From Flavobacterium psychrotrophum (lineage in GTDB: Bacteria; Bacteroidota; Bacteroidia; Flavobacteriales; Flavobacteriaceae): a stretch of 64,000 nucleotides of DNA. Below the pieces are notes generated by a model. That model had not been told where the DNA came from and ran no database searches. It worked only from the letters and a program-made list of their open reading frames with translations. This document shows positions 47,221-61,279 of this stretch, piece by piece (positions within the stretch are counted from its first letter, which is position 1; each line of letters opens with the position of its first letter). The stretch lies in assembly GCF_003403075.1 (NCBI RefSeq), contig NZ_CP031557.1:4650001-4714000 (forward strand). The letters are read 5' to 3'. Made by a program: the position numbers and the translations under genes.

Positions 47221-49479
47221 TTATTTCTTTTGTTCGAGCTGGTCAAATTTATTGCTGACAGCAGCACGCGGCCATACATTGTTAGTTACATCAATATCGG
47301 CAGTTTTTAATTTAGGGTCAATCGTTATTTTTTTAACCACTTTATCTGTAGCAAATACACGGCTAACCGACTGGTGGTTTTTGCGCCATATTTGCACAGG
47401 GAAGGTGTGCAGCTCTGTACTGCCATCTTCAAAGGTAAGCTCTGCAAGTATTGGCATTAGCATACCTCCCGGTTTATCAAAAGTTACTTCATAAAAGTAT
47501 TTTGGCTGCTTTAACTTTGCTTTTTCTTCCGGGGTAAATTTCTCATCAAGGTATTCCTGAAGCAATTTTACATCGGTAGATTTTAATGGCTTTTTAAGGT
47601 CTTTGTTAAAGTCAGGGCCATCTGCTACCATGTAAAGAAACGGGCCTTTCTCCTGCCCGAAGCGGCCTTTTTGTATGCTCACATCCTTCACGTCTTTAGG
47701 CTGCTGCTCTGTAACGTAATATTGTTTTACATCGGCTATGGCAATGTCTACATAATCGGTGCTGTAAAACCATCCCCTCCAAAACCAGTCGAGGTCTACT
47801 GCTGAGGCATCTTCCATGGTACGGAAAAAATCTTCGGGTGTAGGGTGCTTAAATTTCCAACGGTTGGCGTATGTTTTAAAAGCATGGTCAAAAAGGTCGT
47901 GACCCATAATTACCTCGCGCAGTATATTAAGCCCCGCAGCAGGCTTGGCGTAGGCATTATTACCAAACTGGTGAATGCTTTCGCTGTTGGTCATTATAGG
48001 TTCCAGAAATTTCTGGTCACCACTCATATACGGAACAATCTTATCGGCAGGGCCACGGCGCGAGGGGTAATTTACCTCATATTCCTGTTCGGCTAAATAC
48101 TCCATAAAGGTGTTAAGCCCCTCATCCATCCAGCTCCACTGGCGCTCATCAGAGTTAACGATCATAGGAAAAAAGTTGTGCCCCACCTCATGGATGATAA
48201 CACTGGCATTGCCGTACTTTATCTGGTCGCTTACATAGCCGTTCTCATCCGGGCGGCCGTAGTTCCAGCATATCATAGGGTACTCCATGCCCTGATCTGC
48301 CGCAGAAACCGATATAGCCTTAGGGTAAGGATAATCAAAGGTGTACTTGCTGTAACTTTTTAAGGTATGTGCTACTATACGGGTACTGTTGTCGCCCCAC
48401 ATAGGGTTAGCCTCTTTAGGGTATAGCGAAAGCGCCATAACGGTTTTGCCGCCAAGCTGTACCGCCATACCATCATATATAAACTTGCGTGACGACGAAA
48501 AGCCAAAGTCGCGCACGTTAACGGCCTTAAACTTCCAGGTCTTCTTTTTGTCGCTAAAGCCTTTTTCGGTAGCTGTAGCTTCCTCTTGGGTAACAATAAC
48601 TACGGGCTTATCAAAAGTTTTGGTAGCAAGCTCGTAGCGTTTTATCTGATCTGCAGTAAACAGGTCTTTGCGGTTTTGCAGTTCGCCGGTACCGTCTAAA
48701 ACGTGGTCTGCCGGGGTGGTAATGTTTACGTCAAAATTGCCAAAAGGCAAGGCAAATTCTCCCGAACCCCAAAACTGCATATTCTGCCAGCCCTCTACAT
48801 CATTATACACCGCCATACGCGGGTAAAACTGTGCTATAACATACAGGTTGTTACCGTCTTTATCAAAGTGCTCGTAACCGCTGCGGCCACCTACCACCTG
48901 GTAGTTGTTAATGTTATACCACCACTTAATGCTGAATGAAAGTTTTTCGCCATGCTTAAGCGGGGTTGGCAGGTCAATGCGCATCATGGTTTGGTTCACG
49001 GTGTACTGCATCGGCTTACCATTGGCATCTTTAACATAGTCGAGTTTAAAGCCACCGTCAAACTCCTGCTCCATAAACTCGCGGGCAAACCCATTTGCCT
49101 TGTAAGCAGGGTTTACCTTTTGGCGGTCAATGAGCTTAGAGGGGCTATCTGCCGCGTGCTGGTTCTGGTCCAGCTGTACCCAAAGGTATTCCAACGGGTC
49201 GGGCGAATTATTGGTATAAGTGATGGTCTCGGTACCATAAAGCTTGGTGTTTTTATCATCCAGCTCTATGTCCATTTTATAATCTGCCTGCTGTTGGTAA
49301 TAGGCAGGCCCCGGTGCTCCCGATGCGGTACGGAACATATTGGGTGTAGCCAAAAGGTCGTACATCTGGCTGAACTTATTGTTATCGGTATGGCCCGGCT
49401 CACGTGGGGTAGCGGGTTTGTCTTGCGCAGTGGCAGCAAGGGCAGTAAGCAGCGATAGGCTGTAAATAACGTTTTTCAT
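47221..49479 (-). CDS. M1-family metallopeptidase
   Basis: A 752-residue exported zinc peptidase from ATG 49479. It has a signal peptide (VIYSLSLLTALAATAQ), the M1 N-terminal beta domain (YKMDIELDD ... LYGTETITY), and the gluzincin site HEVGH (H430, E431, H434) with the third ligand E453 in WSWMDEGLNTF. AADQGMEYPM stands where GAMEN is usually found, so exopeptidase recognition may differ. Probably periplasmic. Its start follows the DUF6702 stop by 2 nt, so the two are coupled. Confidence 0.9.
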   Translation of the reverse strand: MKNVIYSLSLLTALAATAQDKPATPREPGHTDNNKFSQMYDLLATPNMFRTASGAPGPAYYQQQADYKMDIELDDKNTKLYGTETITYTNNSPDPLEYLWVQLDQNQHAADSPSKLIDRQKVNPAYKANGFAREFMEQEFDGGFKLDYVKDANGKPMQYTVNQTMMRIDLPTPLKHGEKLSFSIKWWYNINNYQVVGGRSGYEHFDKDGNNLYVIAQFYPRMAVYNDVEGWQNMQFWGSGEFALPFGNFDVNITTPADHVLDGTGELQNRKDLFTADQIKRYELATKTFDKPVVIVTQEEATATEKGFSDKKKTWKFKAVNVRDFGFSSSRKFIYDGMAVQLGGKTVMALSLYPKEANPMWGDNSTRIVAHTLKSYSKYTFDYPYPKAISVSAADQGMEYPMICWNYGRPDENGYVSDQIKYGNASVIIHEVGHNFFPMIVNSDERQWSWMDEGLNTFMEYLAEQEYEVNYPSRRGPADKIVPYMSGDQKFLEPIMTNSESIHQFGNNAYAKPAAGLNILREVIMGHDLFDHAFKTYANRWKFKHPTPEDFFRTMEDASAVDLDWFWRGWFYSTDYVDIAIADVKQYYVTEQQPKDVKDVSIQKGRFGQEKGPFLYMVADGPDFNKDLKKPLKSTDVKLLQEYLDEKFTPEEKAKLKQPKYFYEVTFDKPGGMLMPILAELTFEDGSTELHTFPVQIWRKNHQSVSRVFATDKVVKKITIDPKLKTADIDVTNNVWPRAAVSNKFDQLEQKK

Positions 49480-49481
49480 AA

Positions 49482-49985
49482 TCAAAAAGTTATGGTGCCC
49501 GAAGGCGTATCGTAAGTAAGCAACAGGCTTTTTCGGTCTGTGCCTACTTTGGCATTTATCATGTTTTGTTGTGTACGGAACATTTCAAACAGCAGGGTGT
49601 TGCGTACTTCTATTGTTTCGATCTTTTTAGGGGCGGGTACGGTAAGGTAGCACACCAGCTGGTCGTCTTCTATTTCTTTAGCAAGAAAGGTAATAACAGC
49701 AGCTTTGCCGTTTATCTTCAGGCTCATTTTATCGGCCAAGTATTGTTTGATGGTCGCTGTAGTTTCGGGCAGTTCTTTGGGTGTGCCCAGGTAAAACTGT
49801 TTGCCGTATTTGGTGTCCAGCGTTTTTTCGAAGTCGTCTATAAAAATGCGGCCTGTTATCTGCAACTCCTTTTTCTTTGCAGCATATTCGATCTGGAATA
49901 CGGACACGTAGTATTTGTGCACGCCTGCTGAGGTAAGCGTGGCTGCAATTAGTAGTAGTGTAAAGGTGCTGAATAGCTTTTTCAT
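49482..49985 (-). CDS. DUF6702-like exported protein
   Basis: A 167-residue protein with a signal peptide (about 1-20). The mature part resembles DUF6702 proteins: HKYYVSVFQIEY, ITGRIFIDDFEKTLD and a C-terminal LLTYDTPSGTITF. The family is uncharacterised. The gene lies directly ahead of the M1 peptidase with a 2-nt gap, so a linked function is likely, but none is known. Confidence 0.75.
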   Translation of the reverse strand: MKKLFSTFTLLLIAATLTSAGVHKYYVSVFQIEYAAKKKELQITGRIFIDDFEKTLDTKYGKQFYLGTPKELPETTATIKQYLADKMSLKINGKAAVITFLAKEIEDDQLVCYLTVPAPKKIETIEVRNTLLFEMFRTQQNMINAKVGTDRKSLLLTYDTPSGTITF

Positions 49986-50114: not shown

Positions 50115-50696
50115 CTACCCATGCACCGCCCCACTCTTTCCGTAACTCTGGATCAATTCACCTTCAAACTCCAGCCATTCTGCCCAGCGTTTGTCTACGT
50201 TTACACCTTCGCCATATTTACGGGCAAAACCTAAAAACGTAGTATAGTGTGTAGCCTCAGATATCATAAGCTCGTGGTAAAACTTGGCCAGTTCTTTATC
50301 TTTTATATTTTGAGACAATACCCTGAAACGTTCGCAACTGCGGGCTTCGATCATGGCGGCAAACAGCATACGGTCTATAAAGGCCTCCATGCGGCTACAA
50401 TTCTTTTTAGCAAACTTAGACAGTTGGCCTACATAGTCGTCCCTGCGTTCACGCCCTAACGTGTAACCACGCTTTTTGATAATTTCGACCACCATATTAA
50501 AATGTTCCATCTCCTCAACGGCAATCTCTGCCATTTTCTGAATCAGGTCTATATGCTCGGGATTATTCGTAATAATATATAGTGCGTTGGCTGCTGCTTT
50601 TTGTTCGCACCAGGCATGGTCAGTAAGAATTTCTTCGAGGTTCGATTCGGCAATATTGGCCCAGCGCGGGTCGGTCAAGAGTTTTAGTCCAAGCAT
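50115..50696 (-). CDS. miaE: tRNA-(ms[2]io[6]A)-hydroxylase
   Basis: MiaE is a non-haem diiron monooxygenase that hydroxylates the isopentenyl group of ms2i6A37 in tRNA. The 193-residue protein has a ferritin-like four-helix layout with the carboxylate/histidine ligands in AEIAVEEMEHFNM, AAMIEARSCERF and MISEATHYTTF. Single-gene unit. The gap upstream holds a dispersed repeat (50756-50829). Confidence 0.9.
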   Translation of the reverse strand: MLGLKLLTDPRWANIAESNLEEILTDHAWCEQKAAANALYIITNNPEHIDLIQKMAEIAVEEMEHFNMVVEIIKKRGYTLGRERRDDYVGQLSKFAKKNCSRMEAFIDRMLFAAMIEARSCERFRVLSQNIKDKELAKFYHELMISEATHYTTFLGFARKYGEGVNVDKRWAEWLEFEGELIQSYGKSGAVHG

Positions 50697-50755
50697 AACA
50701 AATAAATTATTGTGGGTAAAAATAGGGAATTTATAGCCATTTTTACATCGGTTTT

Positions 50756-50829
50756 GTCATTCCGACGGTAGGAGAAATCTCAGATTAAGTGTAAGATTCT
50801 TCATTCCGCTGCGCTACATTCAGAATGAC
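50756..50829. repeat. Dispersed intergenic inverted repeat, copy 2
   Basis: It starts GTCATTCCGACGGTAGGAGA and ends GATTCTTCATTCCGCTGCGC plus TACATTCAGAATGAC. The right half is almost identical to that of copy 1 (33237-33315). Confidence 0.88.
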
Positions 50830-50871
50830 ATACAGTGCGTTCTTACTCAGGTTGGGTGAATCCAATCTGTT

Positions 50872-52251
50872 TTACACCCTAGTTCCCAGTTCCTCCATCA
50901 CCCTGACAAAATCAGTTACAATAGCATCCCTGTTTTGCAACACACCCTGTTTACTAATCCATTTACCCGAAACAATAGTGCCCAGTATATCGCTAACATC
51001 AGCCGCATATACAAAGGTGTTGCACAGGTTTTTTTCAGAAGCCGTTGCAATAAGTGGCGATGCAGCATTTATAACCACCGCATCAAACGGCTGGCCTTCG
51101 CTAAAGAATGTGCCATCAGTTGCACCCATAGCCCTGCGGCCTGCCTGCCACGCCATTTTTATGGCATTAAAGCCACTGTCTCCGCTATCAGGAGTAACAA
51201 AACTGGTACGCTTGTGCGAAATCAGTCGTTGGCCGTAATCAAGTATGCGCAGTTCTTCCAACGGGTTTAGTCCCACATGGCTGTCGGTACCAATGCTCCA
51301 GTTGCCACCGGCATTTTTATAGTCCTCAAAACGGAACAGCCCGTCGCCCAGGTTGCCCTCTGTACTGGGGCATAATACCACATGGGCACCGCTTTTCGCA
51401 ATGCCGTTTACTTCGCTATCATCAAGGTGAGTGGCATGTACCAGATGATAGTTCGCATCAACCGGGCAGTTGTCTAACAACCATTGCACGGGGCGCTTGC
51501 CATGAAAAGCTACACAGTCTTCAATTTCTTTTAACTGTTCTGACACGTGTATGTGGAACGGCCTGCTGCCATCGAGCGCGTTGCAGACTGCAACTACATC
51601 TTCCGGCTTTACTGCCCGTAGCGAGTGTATACCGATGCCTACGTTAGCGTTATCAAAGGCCTTTGCTGCTTCTATGCTACTGTCAAGCAGTGTGTAATAA
51701 TCTTTTATGGTGTGCGAAATAAAACGCTTTTGCCGCTCTACGGGTTCCTGCCCAAAACCGCCCTGCTGGTAAAACATCGGCACAAGCGTAATGCGGATTC
51801 CTGCCTTTTGTGCAGCGGCCATAAGGCGGGTACCCATTTCGGCAAGGTTAGGGTAGGGGCTGCCATCTTTATCGTGGTGCAGGTAATGAAATTCTGCCAC
51901 CGCAGTATAACCGTGGCGTGCCATTTCGCTGTAGAGCATGGTAGCAACCGCTTCCATCTGATTTGGTGAAAGTGTAAGTGCCAGGCCATACATGGCATTT
52001 CGCCAGCTCCAGAAATCGTCCTGTGCTCCGGTGTTGGTATGCAGTTCTGCAAGCCCCGCCATAGCATACTGAAAGGCGTGCGAATGTGCATTTTGGAAAC
52101 CCGGCAGTGCATAGCCGTTTATATATTCGCCTTCTGGCGTTTCAGTTTGTTTTATTGAGGTAATGTTACCCAAATCATCCAGAGATACAACAGCATTCGT
52201 TATCCAGCCGTTCTCGGTTAGCAGGCCTTTAAAAGTATAGGTAGCGCCCAT
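50872..52251 (-). CDS. hutF: Formimidoylglutamate deiminase
   Basis: HutF converts N-formimidoyl-L-glutamate to N-formyl-L-glutamate and ammonia in histidine breakdown. The 459-residue amidohydrolase has the metal-binding H56 and H58 (NAHSHAFQY), FHIHVSEQ, VHATHLDD and the aspartate in SIGTDSHVGLNPLEELR. FWSWRNAMYG and CPSTEGNLGDGLF are characteristic of HutF. Its ATG overlaps the hutG stop, and the pairing with hutG makes the assignment firm. Confidence 0.92.
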   Translation of the reverse strand: MGATYTFKGLLTENGWITNAVVSLDDLGNITSIKQTETPEGEYINGYALPGFQNAHSHAFQYAMAGLAELHTNTGAQDDFWSWRNAMYGLALTLSPNQMEAVATMLYSEMARHGYTAVAEFHYLHHDKDGSPYPNLAEMGTRLMAAAQKAGIRITLVPMFYQQGGFGQEPVERQKRFISHTIKDYYTLLDSSIEAAKAFDNANVGIGIHSLRAVKPEDVVAVCNALDGSRPFHIHVSEQLKEIEDCVAFHGKRPVQWLLDNCPVDANYHLVHATHLDDSEVNGIAKSGAHVVLCPSTEGNLGDGLFRFEDYKNAGGNWSIGTDSHVGLNPLEELRILDYGQRLISHKRTSFVTPDSGDSGFNAIKMAWQAGRRAMGATDGTFFSEGQPFDAVVINAASPLIATASEKNLCNTFVYAADVSDILGTIVSGKWISKQGVLQNRDAIVTDFVRVMEELGTRV

Positions 52252-53048
52252 TATGGTTGCAGGGTTTTAATCAGTTGGGTAAATACGGCTTTTAACACCT
52301 CGCGCATCTGCGCAGCATTTTGCTCGTTATATTCGGTTTCGCCGGCATCCATATAGTTGGTTTTTGCCATTTCAAGCTGTAAGGCGTGCACATCACTTTC
52401 GGGTTTGCCAAAGTAGCGTGTTATCTGCCCGCCCTTAAACGGCGTGTTGTGCTTAGCTTCATAACCGCTATCTTTAAGGATGTTCCACGCAGCATCAATA
52501 ACGGCTGTAGAAGCCGATTTGCCATCGTTATCACCCAGGATTAGTTGCGGGAAAGCTTCCTCTTGTATGCCCGGTACCACACGGCGAATGGAATGCGCAT
52601 CAAACAACAGCACTGTTCCAAATTCCTGTTTTGTGTTTTCTATGAGTTCTTCCAGTTTTTCATGGTACGGAATGTAATATTTCTGTACGCGTTCTGCTAT
52701 TTCTACCTCATCGGGTGCCGCCTGTTTATAAAGTGGCTCGCCGTTAAAGTTAGTAGATGGTACAAGCCCTGTAATTACACGACCGTCGTTATACAGCGGC
52801 TTACTTTCGGGGTCGCGGTTAAGGTCTACCACCCAGCGGCAATAGTTGGCCTTGATCAGGGTAATACCCATTGCAGGTGCAAAGTCGTACAGGCGGTCAA
52901 TAAACCAGTCGGCATCATCGGGGCGTTCTGCTATTTCGGGTTTTAGGCGTGATGCTATTTCCGGCGGAAAGTAGGTGCCGGAATGTGGGGAGCTTATGAT
53001 AATGGGCACTTTTGGCACCGTAGGCAATGTTATATCGTAAATTTCCAT
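52251..53048 (-). CDS. hutG: N-formylglutamate amidohydrolase
   Basis: HutG hydrolyses N-formyl-L-glutamate to glutamate and formate. The 265-residue protein belongs to the FGase family, with IIISSPHSGTYFPPEI near the start, VVDLNRDPESKPLY, and LFDAHSIRRVVPG in the middle. With hutF it forms the five-step branch of histidine degradation; hutH, hutU and hutI are not in the window. First gene of the two-gene operon. Confidence 0.92.
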   Translation of the reverse strand: MEIYDITLPTVPKVPIIISSPHSGTYFPPEIASRLKPEIAERPDDADWFIDRLYDFAPAMGITLIKANYCRWVVDLNRDPESKPLYNDGRVITGLVPSTNFNGEPLYKQAAPDEVEIAERVQKYYIPYHEKLEELIENTKQEFGTVLLFDAHSIRRVVPGIQEEAFPQLILGDNDGKSASTAVIDAAWNILKDSGYEAKHNTPFKGGQITRYFGKPESDVHALQLEMAKTNYMDAGETEYNEQNAAQMREVLKAVFTQLIKTLQP

Positions 53049-53233: not shown

Positions 53234-54016
53234 TTACTGCTTCTCCTTTAGATAAGCTTCCGCCTGCGTTACAAGATAATCGGTTAGTTCAAATTCTTTT
53301 TTAGGTTCCAGCAGGGGGCGGGTTTCAATGCCTTTATCGCAATACACCAGGAACTTTCCTATCTCATCATGCGGAATGTGCAGTGTCTCTGTAAAAAAGT
53401 AATAGGTGAAACGGCCACTTACCACATCATTAAATGTTTTGGTGTTTTTACTGTCGTATATTTCGCCTTTACTGTTTGCCTTCTTCTTTTTCTTAAAGAT
53501 CATTTTGCCAATGGCTATAAAATCTACACCCTGTAGCTGGCTCTCCGTTACGGGGAGTGCACCGTTAACGGGCTGTTTACTTATTGGGTAGGTGTATTTC
53601 AGGTCGCGCTCGCTGGCGTGAGGGTTTAGTGCTACCACCTTTTTCTTTTTAGCATCATAACCAAGGTCACCAGTAAGGGGAGTGATAATTACCTCTTCAA
53701 GGTTGATGACGTTAGTATCCATCTTAAGGTTAAGTGGGTTTTCTTTTAACTGGTTTTCTTTCAGCACAAGATATTGCGACCTAAAGGTAATGCTGTTAAA
53801 AAACAGCGTATCGCCCTGTCGGGCATAAATGGTAAAATATCCGTTTACATCGGTCACGGCATTAATGTGCGATGAAAGGTTTTGCACCGACACATCATTT
53901 ACCTGTAGCGAATCGGCAATAATATGCCCGCGCAGTATTTCGCGTGGTTTTTTTTGCTGGGCCAGCCCAATAAAGGGAACCAATAGTAGTATGAGGTAAA
54001 ATATTTTAGTTTTCAT
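53234..54016 (-). CDS. Tandem-array exported protein 8 (divergent member)
   Basis: Last gene of the eight-gene array; 260 residues with a signal peptide (ILLLVPFIGLAQ). The CarboxypepD_reg-like domain (about 25-105) has the form GHIIADSLQVNDVSVQNLSS and DVNGYFTIYARQGD, and ends at the TonB-box-like LEEVIITP (106-113). The C-terminal part is the most divergent: it has a lysine-rich insert (KKKKKANSKG) and lacks the LDPLINAISGRT motif. It keeps the family ending ETLHIPHDEIGKFLVYCDKG and a final helix. It overlaps gene 7 by 11 nt. No function is known. Confidence 0.85.
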   Translation of the reverse strand: MKTKIFYLILLLVPFIGLAQQKKPREILRGHIIADSLQVNDVSVQNLSSHINAVTDVNGYFTIYARQGDTLFFNSITFRSQYLVLKENQLKENPLNLKMDTNVINLEEVIITPLTGDLGYDAKKKKVVALNPHASERDLKYTYPISKQPVNGALPVTESQLQGVDFIAIGKMIFKKKKKANSKGEIYDSKNTKTFNDVVSGRFTYYFFTETLHIPHDEIGKFLVYCDKGIETRPLLEPKKEFELTDYLVTQAEAYLKEKQ

Positions 54017-54788
54017 GGGTTGCAGGTTGTATGTCAGCAGGTGGTTCGGGGTTTTCTTTTTGAAGGGCCAGGTATTTCTCGGCCAATAGCATTAAACGCA
54101 GGCGTACCATGTCGTTATTTTTTGCGCGTAATGCCTCGGCACATTCAGGGTCTTCTACAGCATAAAATATAAAGCCGTTTACCAAGTCTTCCGGAATGTG
54201 CAGTTTTGCGGTTATCTGCTCGGGTGTATAAATGTTGTTCAGCTTATCAATGTTAAACTCCTTGCGTTCTGTAGCCAGGTTTTTCTTAAGCATTTTAGTC
54301 CGCCCGCTAATGGCATTAATTATGGGGTCCAACGGAAAAGAAATACCTCCCATAAGCAGGAACATGAATGATGGCTTAAACTCGCTTGCAGTCTTAAGGC
54401 GGCGTTCTGCCACAGTAAGCTGTTTTTGGCCTTTAGGTACGAGCCCAAGCGATTCCGGACTTATTTTATTAATAACTACCTCTTTTAGGTCGGTGCCTTT
54501 AGGCTCTACTTCCAGCAGGTAAGGCTTTTGGTTGAATGATGACTCGCTTAGTTCAAACTCCCGCACCTCTATTATCTTACCGTAAATAACAATGCGGTCG
54601 CCTGCGCGGGCGGGCAGGGTAAAATCGCCATAAGCGCTGGTTTTTGTTTCTGCACCCGTGTATTTGTTTATGACAAAAACATTAGGCACTACGGCATCAC
54701 CTGCAATAACACGGCCCTGCAACGGCTTGCGCTGTTGCGCGAAAGCTGCTGTAACGGTAAGTAAAAACAAAAGTACATAGTGTTTCAT
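54006..54788 (-). CDS. Tandem-array exported protein 7
   Basis: A 260-residue paralogue. Signal peptide (VLLFLLTVTAAFAQ), CarboxypepD_reg-like domain (about 20-100; LQGRVIAGDAVVPNVFVINK, GDFTLPARAGDRIVIYG), and LKEVVIN at 101-107. The shared helical domain follows: ESLGLVPKGQKQLTVAERRL, PLDPIINAISGRT (152-164), IPEDLVNGFIFYAVEDPE and a final leucine-rich helix. The proline-rich tail beyond it is unique. It overlaps gene 6 upstream by 4 nt and gene 8 by 11 nt. Confidence 0.87.
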   Translation of the reverse strand: MKHYVLLFLLTVTAAFAQQRKPLQGRVIAGDAVVPNVFVINKYTGAETKTSAYGDFTLPARAGDRIVIYGKIIEVREFELSESSFNQKPYLLEVEPKGTDLKEVVINKISPESLGLVPKGQKQLTVAERRLKTASEFKPSFMFLLMGGISFPLDPIINAISGRTKMLKKNLATERKEFNIDKLNNIYTPEQITAKLHIPEDLVNGFIFYAVEDPECAEALRAKNNDMVRLRLMLLAEKYLALQKENPEPPADIQPATHEN

Positions 54789-55483
54789 CGTTCCTGTTGC
54801 AGTTTCATGTATTCATCTGCCAGTTCTATAAGCAGCAGTTTTATTTCATATTTGTTAGTATGTACCACATTAGCTACGCGTTTATCTTCTACAACATAAA
54901 ACAGAAACCCTCTTGCCATTTCCTCCGGAATACCAAATGCTTTAAGTTCGCTGTCATTTACTATAGCCTCAATTTCATTAACAAGGTCTTCTTTGTGCAT
55001 AGCATCTGTAGCCATGCGAAATACCCAAAGTCTGCCCATAAGTGCATTCATTAAATACTCCAGCCCTTCTCCGCCGCTGTTGCGCATATAGGCGCGTTCT
55101 CTTTCGGTCACTATTTTTTGCCCTTTTGGAACAAGCCCAAGCGACTCAGGGTTTATATGGTTGATAACAACTTCGTGCAAGTTGGTGGTTTTGGGTTCAG
55201 CTTCTAAAACATACGGATGCTGTGTAAATGATGCTTCGCCCAGTACAAACTCGCGTGTTTCTACATTACTGCCATATATTACAATGCGGTCACCCGCTTT
55301 AGATTCAAGCTGAAACCTGCCGCTGCCATCTGTTTTTATTTCGGCGCCGGTACGTTTATTAATAACAAAAATGCCTGTAACTATAGCTTCACCGGCAATT
55401 ACTTTACCGTCTAATGTTTTCTTTTCCTGCGCTTCGGCTACCGAGGCAATAATAAGCAATAGCAGCCAGAAGTTACATTTCAT
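54785..55483 (-). CDS. Tandem-array exported protein 6
   Basis: A 232-residue paralogue with signal peptide (WLLLLIIASVAEAQ), CarboxypepD_reg-like domain (about 22-101; LDGKVIAGEAIVTGIFVINK) and LHEVVIN at 102-108. The helical domain is partly worn: ESLGLVPKGQK is kept, but LDPLINAISGRT reads GLEYLMNALMGRL. IPEEMARGFLFYVVEDKRVA and the last helix are standard. It overlaps gene 5 by 11 nt and gene 7 by 4 nt. Confidence 0.86.
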   Translation of the reverse strand: MKCNFWLLLLIIASVAEAQEKKTLDGKVIAGEAIVTGIFVINKRTGAEIKTDGSGRFQLESKAGDRIVIYGSNVETREFVLGEASFTQHPYVLEAEPKTTNLHEVVINHINPESLGLVPKGQKIVTERERAYMRNSGGEGLEYLMNALMGRLWVFRMATDAMHKEDLVNEIEAIVNDSELKAFGIPEEMARGFLFYVVEDKRVANVVHTNKYEIKLLLIELADEYMKLQQER

Positions 55484-56207
55484 CTTCTATAAGCTTTATA
55501 TAGTCTGATGCAAGGTTTGTTAATAATGATTTCAACCGCTTTTTGTTGTTACATTTTATAAACGTGCGGCAGTCAGTATCTTCGCATGCATAGGTTATAA
55601 AACCGTCTACATAATCTATAGGTATCCCAAAGTTTGCATTGATTTCTTTTGGTGTGTATATTGCTTTAAGATTATCTGCGGCCTGTATTTTTTCAGATGT
55701 CCTTGTATTTTCTTTTATGGTTCTGCTTTTGCCGTTAAGCCGGTTAATTAAACCGTCGCCGGATAGTTCAAGTCCCTGATTTTTTCTTACAACACGGTTA
55801 GCTCTTTCTCTTCTTTCGGCAACCGAATATTCTTTTTGGCCTGCCTCTATCAACCCAAGTTTTTCTGCATCCAGTTTTTTGCGTTCAACTATTACTTCGT
55901 CAAGTTCACCGGCTTTTGGTTCTACTTCAAGCACATAGGGTTGCGTTGCGAAGGATTTGTCAGAAAGTACAAAATCGTGTACTTCGGTTCGGTCGCTATA
56001 CACGGTAAGGCGCTCACCTGGTTTTGCTTCAATGGTAAAAAGCCCGTTTTCAGACGTTTTTGTTTCGGTACCGGTATGCTTGTTAATAACAAAAATACCA
56101 GATGCCGGTACATTGCCCACGATTACCTTACCATTTAATGTTTTTTTATTCTGTGCTAAAGTTATTGTTGTAAAGAGCAACAGAAATATTATTAGCCTAC
56201 TTTTCAT
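55473..56207 (-). CDS. Tandem-array exported protein 5
   Basis: A 244-residue paralogue from ATG 56207 (the TTG two codons upstream is not needed). Signal peptide (LIIFLLLFTTITLAQ), CarboxypepD_reg-like domain ending at LDEVIVER (102-109), then the helical domain with KLGLIEAGQKEYSVAERRER, DGLINRLNGKSR and IPIDYVDGFITYACEDTDC. With gene 4 it forms a closer subgroup (RANR motif, two cysteines in ACEDTDCRTF). It overlaps both neighbours by 11 nt. Confidence 0.86.
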   Translation of the reverse strand: MKSRLIIFLLLFTTITLAQNKKTLNGKVIVGNVPASGIFVINKHTGTETKTSENGLFTIEAKPGERLTVYSDRTEVHDFVLSDKSFATQPYVLEVEPKAGELDEVIVERKKLDAEKLGLIEAGQKEYSVAERRERANRVVRKNQGLELSGDGLINRLNGKSRTIKENTRTSEKIQAADNLKAIYTPKEINANFGIPIDYVDGFITYACEDTDCRTFIKCNNKKRLKSLLTNLASDYIKLIEDEM

Positions 56208-56928
56208 CTTCAATAGCCTTTAAGTATTGCGGAGCGAGGCTTTGTAGTTGCGGTTTTACCAGCTTACGGCTGTTAGATTGTATTGCGTCAAAACAATCAG
56301 CATCTTCAATTACATAGTAGAGAAACCCCTCTACATAATCTGCAGGAATGGCAAATAAATCTGTAATTTCTTCGGGTGTGTACAAAATGCGCAGCTTATC
56401 AAGTGCACCCATTTTTTCTTCGGTCTTTATATTTTGCTTTATTATCCTGCTGCGCCCGTTAAGCTTATTGCTAAACGCGTCTATAGACAGGTTTAGTCCT
56501 TGGTTAGCAGTTACAGTACGGTTGGCGCGTTTTCTGCGTTGCGCTACGGTATATTGTTTTTGCCCCTGTTCTACAAGCCCCATGGCCTCAGGGTCTAACC
56601 TGCCGCCTTCTACCACAACTTCTTTCAGTTCGTTGGCCTTAAGTTCTACTTCTAATATATATGGCTGTTCTTCAAAAGATTTATCAGACAGCGAAAATTC
56701 CCGCACCTCAACGCGGTCGCTGTATACTGTCAGCCGGTCTCCGGCACGGGCATCAATGGTAAACAAGCCGTTTTCGCCCGATTTGGTTTCTTTACCCGTA
56801 TCTTTATTAATTACAAAAATACCCGGCAGTGGAGCATCCGGGGTTATAACTTTTCCCTGAAAAGCATGCCTTCTTTGGGCAAATACAGAGAGGGAACAAA
56901 ATAACAGGAGGTATAAAAGCTTATTCAT
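56197..56928 (-). CDS. Tandem-array exported protein 4
   Basis: A 243-residue paralogue from ATG 56928 (MNKLLYLLLF); the in-frame start at 56961 would spoil the signal peptide. CarboxypepD_reg-like domain (about 22-100; FQGKVITPDAPLPGIFVINK, SGENGLFTIDARAGDRLTVY), LKEVVVEG (101-108), then MGLVEQGQKQYTVAQRRKRA, SIDAFSNKLNGRS (148-160) and IPADYVEGFLYYVIEDADC. Sister of gene 5. It overlaps gene 3 by 8 nt and gene 5 by 11 nt. Confidence 0.87.
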   Translation of the reverse strand: MNKLLYLLLFCSLSVFAQRRHAFQGKVITPDAPLPGIFVINKDTGKETKSGENGLFTIDARAGDRLTVYSDRVEVREFSLSDKSFEEQPYILEVELKANELKEVVVEGGRLDPEAMGLVEQGQKQYTVAQRRKRANRTVTANQGLNLSIDAFSNKLNGRSRIIKQNIKTEEKMGALDKLRILYTPEEITDLFAIPADYVEGFLYYVIEDADCFDAIQSNSRKLVKPQLQSLAPQYLKAIEDEK

Positions 56929-57625
56929 TGCTGGTTTGTAGTTTTTTATATTTATCGGCATTCTCCATAAGCAGGAGCTTTACCAAAGCATCATTTTTAG
57001 ATTTTATAGCATCGGCTACCCGTGGGTCTTCTATGGCGTAGAATAAAAATCCGCGTGCCAGTTCCGGCTCTACGCCCAGGCCCGCCAGTTCATCATTGGT
57101 AAACAACCCGTCGATGCTTTCCATCAGGGCTTCCTTACGTTCTGTTTCTACCGCTTTTTTTAGCATGGCCATGCGCCCGCTTAGCAGGTTTATAAGCTGG
57201 TCCAGCCCCATGCCGCTGCGTGCAGTTTTCAGCCTGCGCTCTGCCGGGGTATATACTTTCTGGCCTTTGGGTACCAGCCCTCGTTTGGCGGCACTAATGT
57301 CGGTTATTACAACTTCATCCAGTTCGGTGGCTTTTGGGTCGACTTCCAGGGTATAAGGTGTTTGGCTAAAAGCATTTTCATTAACAGCAAACTCACGGGT
57401 TTCTACACCTGTGCTATATATGGCCAGCTTATCGCCAATGCGTGCCGGGATGCTAAAACTTCCGTCGGTGCCAGATTTTACTTCGGCACCTGTAGCCTTG
57501 TTAATTACAAATACACCCATTGCGGGGTTGCCGCCTGCTACAACGCGGCCTGCAAGAGCGCGACGTTCCTGGCTAAAACCCAGCAGGCTGATAAATAATG
57601 ACAGTATGGTAAGGAGTGGTTTCAT
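56921..57625 (-). CDS. Tandem-array exported protein 3
   Basis: A 234-residue paralogue. Signal peptide (LLTILSLFISLLGFSQ), CarboxypepD_reg-like domain (about 21-101; LAGRVVAGGNPAMGVFVINK, GTDGSFSIPARIGDKLAIYS), and LDEVVITD at 102-109. Helical domain with GLVPKGQKVYTPAERRLKTA, GLDQLINLLSGRM (140-152) and ELARGFLFYAIEDPRVADA. It overlaps gene 2 by 4 nt and gene 4 by 8 nt. Confidence 0.87.
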   Translation of the reverse strand: MKPLLTILSLFISLLGFSQERRALAGRVVAGGNPAMGVFVINKATGAEVKSGTDGSFSIPARIGDKLAIYSTGVETREFAVNENAFSQTPYTLEVDPKATELDEVVITDISAAKRGLVPKGQKVYTPAERRLKTARSGMGLDQLINLLSGRMAMLKKAVETERKEALMESIDGLFTNDELAGLGVEPELARGFLFYAIEDPRVADAIKSKNDALVKLLLMENADKYKKLQTSNE

Positions 57626-58362
57626 TCGGCCTGCAATTTAGTGTATTTATCTGCGAGTTCTACCAGCAATAACCTTACCATTTCGGTATTTCCGGCCTTC
57701 ACGGAATCAGCAAGGCGGATATCTTCTACGATATAAAAAATAAAACCGCGCGCAGTTTGTGCCGGGAGGCCAAAGCTTACCAGCTCATCATCGGTAAAGA
57801 GGTTGTTTATCTGTTCAGCCATTAGCTGTTGGCGCTCAATCTGTAGTTCTTTGCGCACACGTTGGGTACGTCCGTTTATGGCATTAATAAGCGGATCGAG
57901 CGGCATAGAACCTCCCAGTAGGCCAAGCAGCATTGTGGGTTTAAATTCGCCGGTAGTGTAGAGCTTGCGCTCCATTTGTGTGTTTTTCTTTTGGTTTTTA
58001 GGCACCAGCCCCAGCGATTCAGACGTTATGCCTGTTACGACCACCTCATCAAGATCGGTTCCTATGAGGTCTATTTCTATGGTATAGGGGTTTTGGCTGA
58101 ATGAATCTGCAGTAATGGCAAATTCGCGTACCTGGGTGGTATTGCTGTAAGCAGTAATACGGTCGCCAATTTTTGCCGGGATTGTAAAGGCACCGTCTGA
58201 GGCCGATTTTACTTCAGTCCCCGTATTTTTGTTGATGATAAATATGTTTTGTGCCGGGTTGCCTGCGGCAATAACACGGCCTTGCAGGTTTTTACGCTCC
58301 TGCGTGTAGCCCCTTACGGTAACGGTTAAAAATAATAGTATGGCGAGCCATTTATTTATCAT
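57622..58362 (-). CDS. Tandem-array exported protein 2
   Basis: A 246-residue paralogue and a good type example. Signal peptide (about 1-20), CarboxypepD_reg-like domain (about 24-103; LQGRVIAAGNPAQNIFIINK, ASDGAFTIPAKIGDRITAYS). The TonB-box-like LDEVVVTG (104-111) is exactly the form seen before the plug of SusC/CirA-type receptors. The shared helical domain follows in place of plug and barrel: SLGLVPKNQKK (116-126), PLDPLINAINGRT (154-166), GFIFYIVED (206-214) and a leucine-rich last helix. It overlaps gene 1 by 11 nt and gene 3 by 4 nt. Confidence 0.88.
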   Translation of the reverse strand: MINKWLAILLFLTVTVRGYTQERKNLQGRVIAAGNPAQNIFIINKNTGTEVKSASDGAFTIPAKIGDRITAYSNTTQVREFAITADSFSQNPYTIEIDLIGTDLDEVVVTGITSESLGLVPKNQKKNTQMERKLYTTGEFKPTMLLGLLGGSMPLDPLINAINGRTQRVRKELQIERQQLMAEQINNLFTDDELVSFGLPAQTARGFIFYIVEDIRLADSVKAGNTEMVRLLLVELADKYTKLQAE

Positions 58363-59086
58363 TGATTAATTGCGTCCGGTATTTATCAGCCATCCCTGCC
58401 ATCAGGAACCTTGCCATCTCCGTGTTCTTTTCAGCAACGGCTTTTGCAAAGTATTTATTTTCTACAACATAAAAAATAAAGCCCTGAACGTAGTCTAATG
58501 GTATTTTTAGCTTAGAAATAATGTCTTCCTCACTATAAAGATAGGCAATTTTTTGCATCAGGGTTTCCTTTTTCTCGGTTTCTGCAGCCTGTTTTAGTAT
58601 AGCAGTACGTCCGCTAAAGGCATTAATCAGCGGGTCCAGCCCCAGCGGATTCATCCTGAATGTACTTGCTGTAGCCAGTTTACGTTCTGCCGGGGTGTAT
58701 TTCTTTTGTCCGACAGGTACCAGGCCTAAAGATTCAGAATTTATGTGGCTATAGTCTACAATTATAAGTTCGCTAAGCTCGTGCTGTAATGGCGCCAGTG
58801 GCACCAGCAGCAGGCCGTTAAGGTCTTCTGCTTTTAGCACAACGTTTTTTGCGGTAAACTGTACCGCCGAAAATATAAGTGTATCGTTAGCGCCTGCATA
58901 GATTGTAAAGTAGCCGCCACGCCCGGTGGTAACAGATTTTTCTGTTGTTTTATTGATGACGTAAATACCGTCAAGGCTGTCAAAGTCAGATACCACTTTA
59001 CCATTTAGCGTACAGCGGTCTTGTGCCACAGCTACAGCGGTAAAACTTAAAAAAAAGGCTATAAAACTTTTAAACAGCATATTCAT
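58352..59086 (-). CDS. Tandem-array exported protein 1 (first gene)
   Basis: First gene of the array; 244 residues from ATG 59086 (ATGs at 59095 and 59080 are alternatives). Signal peptide (FIAFFLSFTAVAVAQ). The CarboxypepD_reg-like domain (about 25-102) is closer to gene 8 in its middle (GYFTIYAGANDTLIFSAVQF). The linker reads ELSELIIVD (103-111). The helical domain is canonical: SLGLVPVGQKKYTPAERKLA, GLDPLINAFSGRT (149-161), IPLDYVQGFIFYVVENKYF. Divergent from pepE. No clear TAnnTTTG box is visible in the gap to 59165, so the operon promoter is unknown. Confidence 0.87.
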   Translation of the reverse strand: MNMLFKSFIAFFLSFTAVAVAQDRCTLNGKVVSDFDSLDGIYVINKTTEKSVTTGRGGYFTIYAGANDTLIFSAVQFTAKNVVLKAEDLNGLLLVPLAPLQHELSELIIVDYSHINSESLGLVPVGQKKYTPAERKLATASTFRMNPLGLDPLINAFSGRTAILKQAAETEKKETLMQKIAYLYSEEDIISKLKIPLDYVQGFIFYVVENKYFAKAVAEKNTEMARFLMAGMADKYRTQLINDK

Positions 59087-59164
59087 ATCAGTCATTGTAT
59101 TGCGGTAATTAAGGCAGGCATTAAAAACTTTGTAACTTTACCTTTTATTACATTAGTTAAACGG

Positions 59165-59872
59165 ATGAAAAAATTAATTATTGCCAGCACCTCTACACTA
59201 CACGGAGGCAGTTATTTAGAGTACTTATTGCCAGCGCTGCAACAGCACTTTTCCGGTTGCGGATCGCTTATATTTATACCTTATGCACGGCCGGGTGGTA
59301 TGAGCCACGACGATTATACCGCACGCGCAGCAGCATTTTTTACAAAATTAAATATTACAGTTAAAGGAATACACGAATTTGAAGATCCTGCGGCGGCGTT
59401 AACCGACGCTCAAGCCGTGTTTACCGGAGGCGGCAATACCTTCCTGCTGGTTTCTCAGCTTTATAAGAACGGTGTAATGACGGCTTTGCAGGATGCTATA
59501 AGCAGAGGTGTGCCGTATCTGGGCAGTAGCGCGGGCAGTAACATTTGCGGGCTTACCATGCAAACTACTAACGATATGCCCATCATTTATCCGCCGAGTT
59601 TCCGTACGCTGGGGGCGGTACCGTTTAACCTGAACCCGCACTACCTCGACCCGCAGGAGGGAAGCACCCATATGGGCGAAACCCGCGAAACCCGTATTAA
59701 AGAGTTTCACCAGTTTAATACCCAGCCGGTATTAGGGCTTAGGGAAGGTAGCTGGCTGGACGTTAGTGGCAACACAGTACTGCTTAAAGGCGATTTACCG
59801 GCGCGGTTATTCCGCCACGGCAAAGAACCGGAAGAGCTTGAAGCCGGTACAGATATCAGTTGGCTAAAATAA
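59165..59872 (+). CDS. pepE: Peptidase E (S51 dipeptidase)
   Basis: A 235-residue serine peptidase that cleaves Asp-Xaa dipeptides. The nucleophile S122 lies in LGSSAGSNI; D138 and H159 (LNPHYLD) are the likely partners by comparison with E. coli PepE. FTGGGNTFLLV forms the nucleophile-elbow neighbourhood. There is no signal peptide, so it is cytosolic. Single gene, divergent from the tandem array. Confidence 0.92.
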   Translation: MKKLIIASTSTLHGGSYLEYLLPALQQHFSGCGSLIFIPYARPGGMSHDDYTARAAAFFTKLNITVKGIHEFEDPAAALTDAQAVFTGGGNTFLLVSQLYKNGVMTALQDAISRGVPYLGSSAGSNICGLTMQTTNDMPIIYPPSFRTLGAVPFNLNPHYLDPQEGSTHMGETRETRIKEFHQFNTQPVLGLREGSWLDVSGNTVLLKGDLPARLFRHGKEPEELEAGTDISWLK

Positions 59873-59997: not shown

Positions 59998-60558
59998 TTG
60001 AAAGTAATTGCCTTACATCGCGACGAAAAAGAGCTGATAAGCCAGGCCGCCGAAAACAACCGGCACGCCCAGCAGCAGATCTACACTAAGCATTCGCCAA
60101 AGATGCTGGGTATTTGCAGGCAGTATATTAAAGACCTGCACCTGGCAGAAGATGTAATGATAACAGCTTTTATGAAGGTGTTTGGAAGCCTGAAAAATTT
60201 TGAGCACAAAGGCAGTTTTGAAGGATGGATTCGCCGGATAATGGTAAACGAGTGCATAAGCTATCTTAGGGTTCAGAAAAAAACAGGGTATTTAGAAGAT
60301 GAGTTTTATGTGGAAGATACCCACAATAATATAGAAAGCGGGCTGAGTGTAGATGACATTCAGAGTCTTATAGACAGCCTGCCGGATGGCTACAAAATGG
60401 TGTTTAACCTGTACTGTATAGAAGGGTACAAGCACCAGGAAATAGCACAAATGCTTGGGATAAGCGAAGGTACAAGCAAAAGCCAGCTGAGCCACGCCAG
60501 GAAGATGTTGCAGGAGCAGATTAACAAACAAAAGAATTACGTAAATGGAACCGAATAA
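59998..60558 (+). CDS. ECF-type RNA polymerase sigma factor
   Basis: A 186-residue sigma factor starting at TTG 59998 (MKVIALHRDEKELISQ). Region 2 includes HLAEDVMITAFMKVFGSL and FEGWIRRIMVNECISYL. Region 4 has the helix-turn-helix GYKHQEIAQMLGISEGTSKS. It overlaps the anti-sigma-like gene by 14 nt, and an outer-membrane protein gene follows, giving a sigma/anti-sigma/OMP unit. Similar to the sigma factor at 31460, above all in region 4. Confidence 0.92.
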   Translation: MKVIALHRDEKELISQAAENNRHAQQQIYTKHSPKMLGICRQYIKDLHLAEDVMITAFMKVFGSLKNFEHKGSFEGWIRRIMVNECISYLRVQKKTGYLEDEFYVEDTHNNIESGLSVDDIQSLIDSLPDGYKMVFNLYCIEGYKHQEIAQMLGISEGTSKSQLSHARKMLQEQINKQKNYVNGTE

Positions 60559-61279
60559 AATAGAACAGGAATTTAAGCAGCAGCTGGAGCAGCGCAGCAT
60601 AGCACCATCGCCTATGGCGTGGGACAGGCTGGATGCCATGCTTACTGTAGCCGAACAAAAGGCGGCGCCTAAAAAAAAGGCAAATCTTGGTTGGATGTAT
60701 ATGGCTGCCTGTTTCCTGGTGTTGCTAAGCGGTGGAATGTTCTTCTTTAATAAGGAAACCAAACCACAGGGCACTGTAAACGGTAACAGTGTTGTAGAAA
60801 AAAGCACTCAGGCTACGCAAACTGAAACGCAGCCTACTCAAATAATACCGGTTGCATCACAACAAAGCCAGATTGCAGAAACGGTTAAGAGTGTAAAACC
60901 TGCCAAAAAAGTAAAAAATACAGTAAACGAGCAAAAATTCTTCCCGTTACCTGATCAAAAAATGCAGGAAGCAGTAGCACAAACTACTGTAAAAGAAGAA
61001 AGCCCTGTTGTAGAGCCGGTATCGTCTAAAATAAAAGTAGATGCCAATGCCCTGCTGGCAAGTGTAGAACATAATGCTTCAAAAAATAATGTTGCTCAAA
61101 ACATTCCTGCCGTAACCAGGCCAAACATAAAGCGTTCTAAAATAGAAGTTAATGCAAACACCCTGCTTACATCGGTAGAAGGCGAACTTGACCAGAGTTT
61201 TAGGGGTAAGGTTATTAATTCTCTTCAAAAAAACTACAATACCGTAAAAACGGCTGTTGCCACGCGCAACCTTCAATAG
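60545..61279 (+). CDS. Anti-sigma-like single-span membrane protein
   Basis: A 244-residue protein with an N-terminal cytoplasmic segment (1-45, FKQQLEQRSIAPSPMAWDRL), one membrane helix (about 49-67) and a low-complexity periplasmic part rich in Gln, Thr, Lys and Val. Two similar segments, IKVDANALLASVE and IEVNANTLLTSVE, lie about 45 residues apart near the C-terminus. The position after a sigma gene, the overlap and the topology suggest an anti-sigma factor; no named domain is recognised. Confidence 0.75.
   Translation: MEPNKIEQEFKQQLEQRSIAPSPMAWDRLDAMLTVAEQKAAPKKKANLGWMYMAACFLVLLSGGMFFFNKETKPQGTVNGNSVVEKSTQATQTETQPTQIIPVASQQSQIAETVKSVKPAKKVKNTVNEQKFFPLPDQKMQEAVAQTTVKEESPVVEPVSSKIKVDANALLASVEHNASKNNVAQNIPAVTRPNIKRSKIEVNANTLLTSVEGELDQSFRGKVINSLQKNYNTVKTAVATRNLQ

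Follow-up and report, generated by a model that had tools for sequence, protein, structure and literature searches.

An eight-gene array of BamP homologues with graded loop lengths in Flavobacterium psychrotrophum, a genome with one canonical BamA

A 64,000-nt window of the Flavobacterium psychrotrophum genome (NZ_CP031557.1, positions 4,650,001 to 4,714,000) contains eight tandem minus-strand genes (Table 1) whose products are, by sequence comparison, homologues of BamP, a periplasmic subunit of the β-barrel assembly machinery (BAM) of Flavobacterium johnsoniae (Liu et al., Nature 2025; PMC12611786). The array is probably an enlarged bamP locus, and its products probably act as interchangeable plugs of the lateral gate of BamA. 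The observations behind this reading are the homology, an orthologous locus, the architecture of two members, a single canonical BamA and a series of loop-length classes. The statement in a first-pass annotation of the window that no such system had been described is outdated, as BamP and three homologues were reported in F. johnsoniae in 2025 (PMC12611786).

As described in the article text of that study, the N-domain of BamP contacts POTRA 4/5 of BamA, the linker passes into the BamA barrel as far as loop L6 and out via the lateral seam, and a three-helix C-domain sits between POTRA 1 and BamD. Loop-bound BAM is regarded by the authors as inhibited or inactive, and catalysis requires the loop to leave. 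F. johnsoniae also has BamP2, BamP3, and BamP4, whose loops "markedly diverge"; loss of all four homologues causes additive darobactin sensitivity, and overexpressed BamP is sufficient alone for protection (PMC12611786). The article sections consulted mention neither eight-gene arrays nor loop classes, and the loop-length classes and the N-domain identity described below go beyond them.

Gene 8 matched the solved BamP chain (9n2d_E) over residues 1-253 (phmmer, E = 2e-16) and is 26% identical to BamP (Fjoh_1771) over 252 residues. A profile of genes 1-7 built without gene 8 matched BamP residues 1-238 at 73.6 bits. The NCBIfam BamP model NF053692 matched all eight products, with gene 8 aligned over its full length at 181 bits and genes 1-7 scoring 50-79 bits. 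Genome-wide, this model gave 31 matches; those outside the array ended by model position 156 of 251 and comprised one relative of 267 amino acids, one short open reading frame (ORF; open frame 284 amino acids), and ORFs of ~800-1100 amino acids. A search with gene 2 recovered the remaining seven members at E-values from 7.6e-70 to 1.7e-6, and the eight array genes were the sole matches at E ≤ 0.001 in the 4.84 Mb genome. These mutual matches rule out an array of random or unrelated ORFs. Pairwise identity among the eight is ~19-58%.

The eight products share the common build proposed in the first-pass annotation: a signal-peptide-like N-terminus, a CarboxypepD_reg-like domain, an LxEVVV-type hexamer, and a helical C-domain, the last seen in AlphaFold models made for genes 2 and 8. 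Both models have the three-part architecture of BamP (PDB 9n2d/9n2e), and the best match of each N-domain was solved BamP; the remaining six members were assigned this architecture by alignment. LDEVVV or a variant hexamer is present in all eight. The sole domain recognised by Pfam was CarboxypepD_reg-like (PF13715), for which only gene 8 exceeded the curated cut-off, and no Pfam match to the Plug domain was found in any of the eight proteins (232-260 amino acids). Other parts of the earlier description needed revision. The "shared helical domain" of ~130 residues is really a linker of 46-69 residues plus a helical domain of 79-81 residues, and the motifs LGLVPKGQK, AERRL, and LDPLINAISGRT, which do recur, are located in the linker. 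The reported loss of LDPLINAISGRT from genes 6 and 8 is better described as a degenerate LDPLIN...GRT segment retained in gene 6 (LEYLMNALMGRL) and membership of a separate subfamily, with no loss, in gene 8. Genes 4 and 5 do form a pair (identity 64, 60, and 49% in N-domain, linker, and C-domain, respectively), and their duplication seems to predate the species because a related sequence, L022_3of3, joins gene 4 and leaves gene 5 outside in both trees (support 98/83 and 99/77). In the first domain, genes 1 and 8 are only slightly alike, at 30% identity; the values for genes 2-7 are 24-27% against gene 8 and 22-31% against gene 1.

Table 1. Positions in the window of the array genes and of the genes that mark the locus.
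Feature	Coordinates	Strand	Description
Gene 1	58352..59095	-	247 aa, BamP2/3-like type; loop tip 28 aa (58604-58687)
Gene 2	57622..58362	-	246 aa, BamP2/3-like type; long loop tip 36 aa (57865-57972); AlphaFold model
Gene 3	56921..57625	-	234 aa, BamP2/3-like type; short loop tip 24 aa (57170-57241)
Gene 4	56197..56928	-	243 aa from ATG 56928, BamP2/3-like type; loop tip 31 aa (56449-56541)
Gene 5	55473..56207	-	244 aa from ATG 56207, BamP2/3-like type; loop tip 31 aa (55725-55817); forms a pair with gene 4
Gene 6	54785..55483	-	232 aa, BamP2/3-like type; short, degenerate loop tip 24 aa (55028-55099)
Gene 7	54006..54788	-	260 aa, BamP2/3-like type; long loop tip 37 aa (54297-54407)
Gene 8	53234..54016	-	260 aa, putative bamP orthologue; BamP-type linker 69 aa (53480-53686); AlphaFold model
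pepE-like S51 peptidase	59165..59872	+	divergent 5' neighbour of the array; locus marker, outside the system
DUF6702 gene (49482-49985) and M1 peptidase (47221-49485)	47221..49985	-	3' neighbours, here three genes away from the array

The locus was compared across 84 loci, comprising the window, three named loci, and 80 array regions (one in each of 80 of 120 other genus genomes, among the matches listed); array members were those above 100 bits, and the L022 and L118 arrays are possibly cut by contig ends. Of the 83 other loci, 81 have a divergent pepE on the 5' side of the array, and 71 carry the DUF6702 and M1 peptidase genes 3' of it. A FastTree phylogeny of 238 sequences contained a BamP clade (support 100, confirmed as a bipartition) that joins F. 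johnsoniae BamP to 62 array members, drawn from 60 of the 84 loci. Fifty-nine of these are last in their own array, and gene 8 is the sole window gene in the clade. Genes at the first and last positions group with their positional counterparts in other arrays, gene 1 among the first genes. At the F. johnsoniae-like locus L113, the last of three genes is 92.9% identical to F. johnsoniae BamP. Judged from position and phylogeny, gene 8 is the orthologue of BamP, with which it shares the genomic locus and the last position but not the linker, and genes 1-7 expand a neighbouring subfamily. The latter match the type found at positions 1 and 2 of L113, which probably correspond to BamP2 and BamP3, given the name of a joint deletion in the article text (PMC12611786). 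There are two such copies in the L113-type locus and seven in the window.

The window array is the largest among the 84 loci, where arrays have one (13 loci), two (16), three (38), four (12), five (3), seven (one), or eight (the window) members; the other 40 genus genomes may hold larger ones. Across the Flavobacteriaceae, one or more matches at E ≤ 1e-30 are present in 219 of 249 genomes (including that of the window), and more than four matches were found in the window genome only (11 candidates scored per genome). The nearest relative of gene 8 in another genome is 56% identical, and 20 of 398 genomes (again including that of the window) have a match at E ≤ 1e-40. Larger genomes tend to have larger arrays (rho 0.50, 81 genomes). 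The second largest array, with seven genes, is in Flavobacterium akiainvivens (L021:7448-13155) and has no BamP-clade member.

All eight ORFs are intact as first described, and the junction overlaps of 11, 4, 8, 11, 11, 4, and 11 nt were reproduced, given internal ATGs for genes 4 and 5 (Table 1). Across the genus loci, 123 of 153 junctions overlap, 65 of them by 11 nt, and the last junction of the array is an 11-nt overlap in 44 of 71, counts that are biased toward overlap by choosing, among several possible starts, the one nearest a small overlap. The overlaps suggest a single translation-coupled message, so that the operon of exported paralogues proposed earlier is likely.

A single protein of the window genome passes the cut-off for the BamA family; compared with F. 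johnsoniae BamA (9n2d_A), it scores 1247 bits over residues 58-918. Three weaker Omp85-like frames are also present, as are FadL-family candidates for BamG. Since the article text is understood to describe one BamP per BamA (PMC12611786), a single canonical BamA means that the eight proteins most simply share one slot. By analogy with BamP, each product would be secreted to the periplasm with a BamP-like build, its N-terminal β-sandwich would dock on BamA POTRA 4/5, its linker would rise into the BamA barrel and exit at the lateral seam, and its helical domain would span the distance from POTRA 1 to BamD. Export, BamA contacts, gate plugging, and barrel insertion of the linkers are thus proposed by likeness to BamP; alternative occupancy is suggested by the pattern described here. 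The eight proteins would be alternative occupants, giving BAM complexes with a short, medium, long, or BamP-type plug. Client folding would require displacement of the plug, and different, presumably specialised, plugs would probably tune gate closure and the access of clients and compounds, much as BamP homologues shield against darobactin. The "multi-subunit assembly" considered in the first-pass annotation is accordingly retained, indirectly and by homology, as occupancy of BAM, with one BamA slot filled in turn in place of eight co-subunits. The "set of alternative specificities" is the best fit of its three functional options.

The loop-length classes were defined in 245 sequences of the genes 1-7 type (a linker pattern recognised 248 of 439 aligned sequences, of which three incomplete ones were removed). 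The length of the loop tip, measured from ERKL to GRT, has a standard deviation of 6.0 residues, compared with 1.3 for N-domain length and 0.7 for C-domain length, and peaks at 23-24, 28, and 36-37 residues. The tips of genes 1-7 make the window the sole array with four classes. Classes are mixed in 49 of 53 arrays with at least two recognised members (shuffle mean 35.2, maximum 46; 0 of 5000 shuffles reached 49), a result to be read as a pattern and not a probability because the loci are related, and one obtained with a linker pattern that overlooked some members, such as three of seven in L021. With gaps counted, tip identity within the long, short, and medium classes is 54, 47, and 44%, respectively, where N-domains reach 30-33% and C-domains 37-39% (30 and 38% in the long class), and between-class tip identity is 31-39%; with gaps ignored, the tips are 50-55% identical within classes and 45-48% between them. 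The 143 BamP-type sequences behave differently, with the linker least conserved (25% versus 40% for the N-domain and 41% for the C-domain). Among 21 orthologue-type pairs (gaps counted), the linker is least conserved in 11 and most conserved in 7. On a linker-free tree, at least 39 class changes are needed, compared to ~94 with shuffled labels; on this evidence, loops are inherited yet often switched, tree errors included. The N-domain tree places genes 6 and 7 as sisters (95/92) and the tree of linker plus C-domain separates them, but their joint grouping was not rejected there (approximately unbiased test, p 0.15). Gene 2 and the metagenome protein P0002 are identical at 81/87 N-domain positions, 32/58 linker positions, and 53/80 C-domain positions (Fisher p 9e-8 for N-domain versus linker), with loop tips of 36 and 28 residues; for P0001 the pattern is reversed, at 82/87, 57/58, and 80/80. 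A swap or uneven rates could account for this contrast, and gene conversion or domain swapping within the array is suggestive only.

Several observations weigh against interchangeable plugs. No array member attains the NF053692 equivalog cut-off of 230 bits; at L113, positions 1 and 2 score 102 and 96 bits, below this cut-off, and the last gene 376, above it. The strict BamP equivalog label applies to none of the eight. Gene 3 alone, searched against solved structures, found a SusC homologue only (E = 5e-4) and no BamP. A match to a characterised family, which the first-pass annotation named as refuting its reading, exists at the family level and is weak for the C-domain taken alone: pairwise hhalign of genes 1-7 and BamP C-domains gave 83% over 66 columns (E = 8.6e-6), and linker plus C-domain gave 59% over 69 columns. 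The C-terminal portion of BamP itself is described as poorly resolved (PMC12611786). There is no BamP-clade gene in 24 of the 84 loci, and the three other Omp85-like proteins could be partners. Old orthology of positions 1 and 2 may underlie the pooling of loop classes, and the relatedness of the loci, noted above, limits the class-mixing result. In F. johnsoniae, there was no growth defect without all four BamP homologues on the media tested, and among the additional homologues, appreciable expression in rich medium was reported in the article text for BamP4 only (PMC12611786). Even so, an array encoding exchangeable gate plugs remains the probable explanation. It would provide a natural series of plugs for the BamA gate, graded in loop length and found alongside one canonical BamA, as a tool for probing the purpose of BamP.

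In both sequence and fold, the N-domain of the array proteins is the same domain as the N-terminal extension (NTE) found on SusC transporters (PDB 9hfj, 6ytc; PF13715), which are themselves assembled by BAM. Both subfamily profiles matched the N-terminal part of transporter-length ORFs in all eight loci tested, seven of them distinct (L019 = L158). The main transporter matches end at model positions 109-116 (genes 1-7 profile) and 112-135 (gene 8 profile), stopping at or shortly past the LxEVVV hexamer. Plug follows the NTE-like domain in three tested transporter ORFs from the window genome, whereas in the array proteins the linker and helical domain follow. The N-domain of BamP and a client NTE may compete for POTRA 4/5. 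BamP could then be a client mimic, with an arriving NTE lifting the BamP N-domain and pulling the plug from the seam, and with eight plugs tuned to client groups; this extension of the plug model is tentative and, on balance, rather doubtful. If true, the NTE, a domain of previously open function, would be a BAM-docking and plug-release domain, and the array would hold plugs whose loops and docking faces suit different client groups and are exchanged on a single BamA. The B. thetaiotaomicron BAM has only BamADGH in common with that of F. johnsoniae, according to the article text (PMC12611786), so the NTE phenotype there cannot be plug release. Client number was not supported as a driver of array size: the rank correlation with first-look candidates, probably transporter N-domains for the most part, was 0.38 and fell to -0.23 at fixed genome size, whereas genome length retained 0.41 in the same partial analysis. 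"BamP" was not found in the available text of PMC12578637, and the label "Carboxypep" is absent from the texts of PMC12611786 and PMC12578637; the NTE link may nonetheless be published elsewhere.

Other explanations of the copy number make different use of the same data. The copies could be a compound shield under an arms race, excluding darobactin-like seam inhibitors, with different loops meeting different compounds and copy number rising as a result. The additive darobactin sensitivity of the four-fold deletion in F. johnsoniae (PMC12611786), the varying sizes of the loop classes, and the poorly conserved BamP-type linker would all fit, but the tips of the genes 1-7 type are conserved within classes above the folded domains and overexpressed BamP suffices alone (PMC12611786), and a shield as the main cause is judged unlikely. 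Dosage or neutral redundancy, in which tandem duplication in a single lineage left eight BamP proteins that are nearly equivalent and lack specialised roles, agrees with the limited phenotype of the F. johnsoniae deletions on the media tested (PMC12611786) and with bigger arrays in bigger genomes. It sits poorly with eight frames kept intact despite their divergence, with mixed classes in nearly all arrays, and with first and last genes that group with their counterparts elsewhere, and is considered distinctly unlikely.

The resemblance to transporters raises the prospect of TonB decoys or adaptors, in which the NTE-like domain and LxEVVV mimic the N-terminal end of SusC and bind TonB instead of BamA. 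The LDEVVV-type hexamers do resemble the TonB box VDEVVV of Bt1763 (PMC7782687), and the transporter homology extends to about the hexamer. However, BamP, with LKEVLV at the hexamer site, is bound to POTRA 4/5 in BAM, and BamP4 likewise binds BAM (PMC12611786); a decoy would also leave the conserved linker and C-domain without use, which makes it highly improbable. The antigen-like or surface-recognition diversification raised in the first-pass annotation would account for many diverged tandem copies and for the variable BamP-type linker. It is disfavoured, to the point of being barely credible, by the periplasmic location expected from BamP homology and by the conservation of the genes 1-7 loops within classes, a case that is weaker for the BamP type.

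Beyond the array, two candidates for BamP4 were seen. BamP4 is a BamP homologue that binds BAM in vivo in F. johnsoniae, and it is probably encoded outside the three-gene locus because it is not part of the three-gene deletion (PMC12611786). The strongest outlying BamP-like relative in the window genome (G000:C1:1094188-1094988; L015:1081-1884, minus strand) has 267 amino acids, with an NTE-like domain plus a linker of its own, and is a candidate BamP4 orthologue. Thirty of 296 Bacteroidota genomes, all from the same family, encode relatives of this protein (E ≤ 1e-15). It is adjoined by what we take to be a DEAD-box-helicase-like gene. In the F. johnsoniae-like genome G079, a lone BamP-type gene of 236 amino acids lies apart from the three-gene array (L147:1501-2211) and is a second candidate.

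Several features flank the array. In relatives, the median spacing between the array and the DUF6702 gene is -3 bp (71 loci), and 70 of these 71 have the gene within 500 bp; because it usually abuts or overlaps the array end, it may share the array's operon. In the window, genes for an N-formylglutamate amidohydrolase, an amidohydrolase (presumably hutF-like), and MiaE lie between the two at 50115-53048 and, given the close spacing elsewhere, are probably an insertion at this locus. A scan with a presumed Bacteroidota-like promoter consensus found a motif upstream of the array in 24 of the 84 loci (200 mononucleotide shuffles: mean 7.6, maximum 17) and none upstream of the window array. A promoter-like motif ending in TANNTTTG is common to the F. 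johnsoniae-like loci L113, L091, and L094 and is likewise absent before the window array. At 59998-61279 in the window, a sigma-70 family gene (ECF-type match) overlaps a gene for a protein of 244 amino acids that has no Pfam match, and the same two genes adjoin the array in L022.

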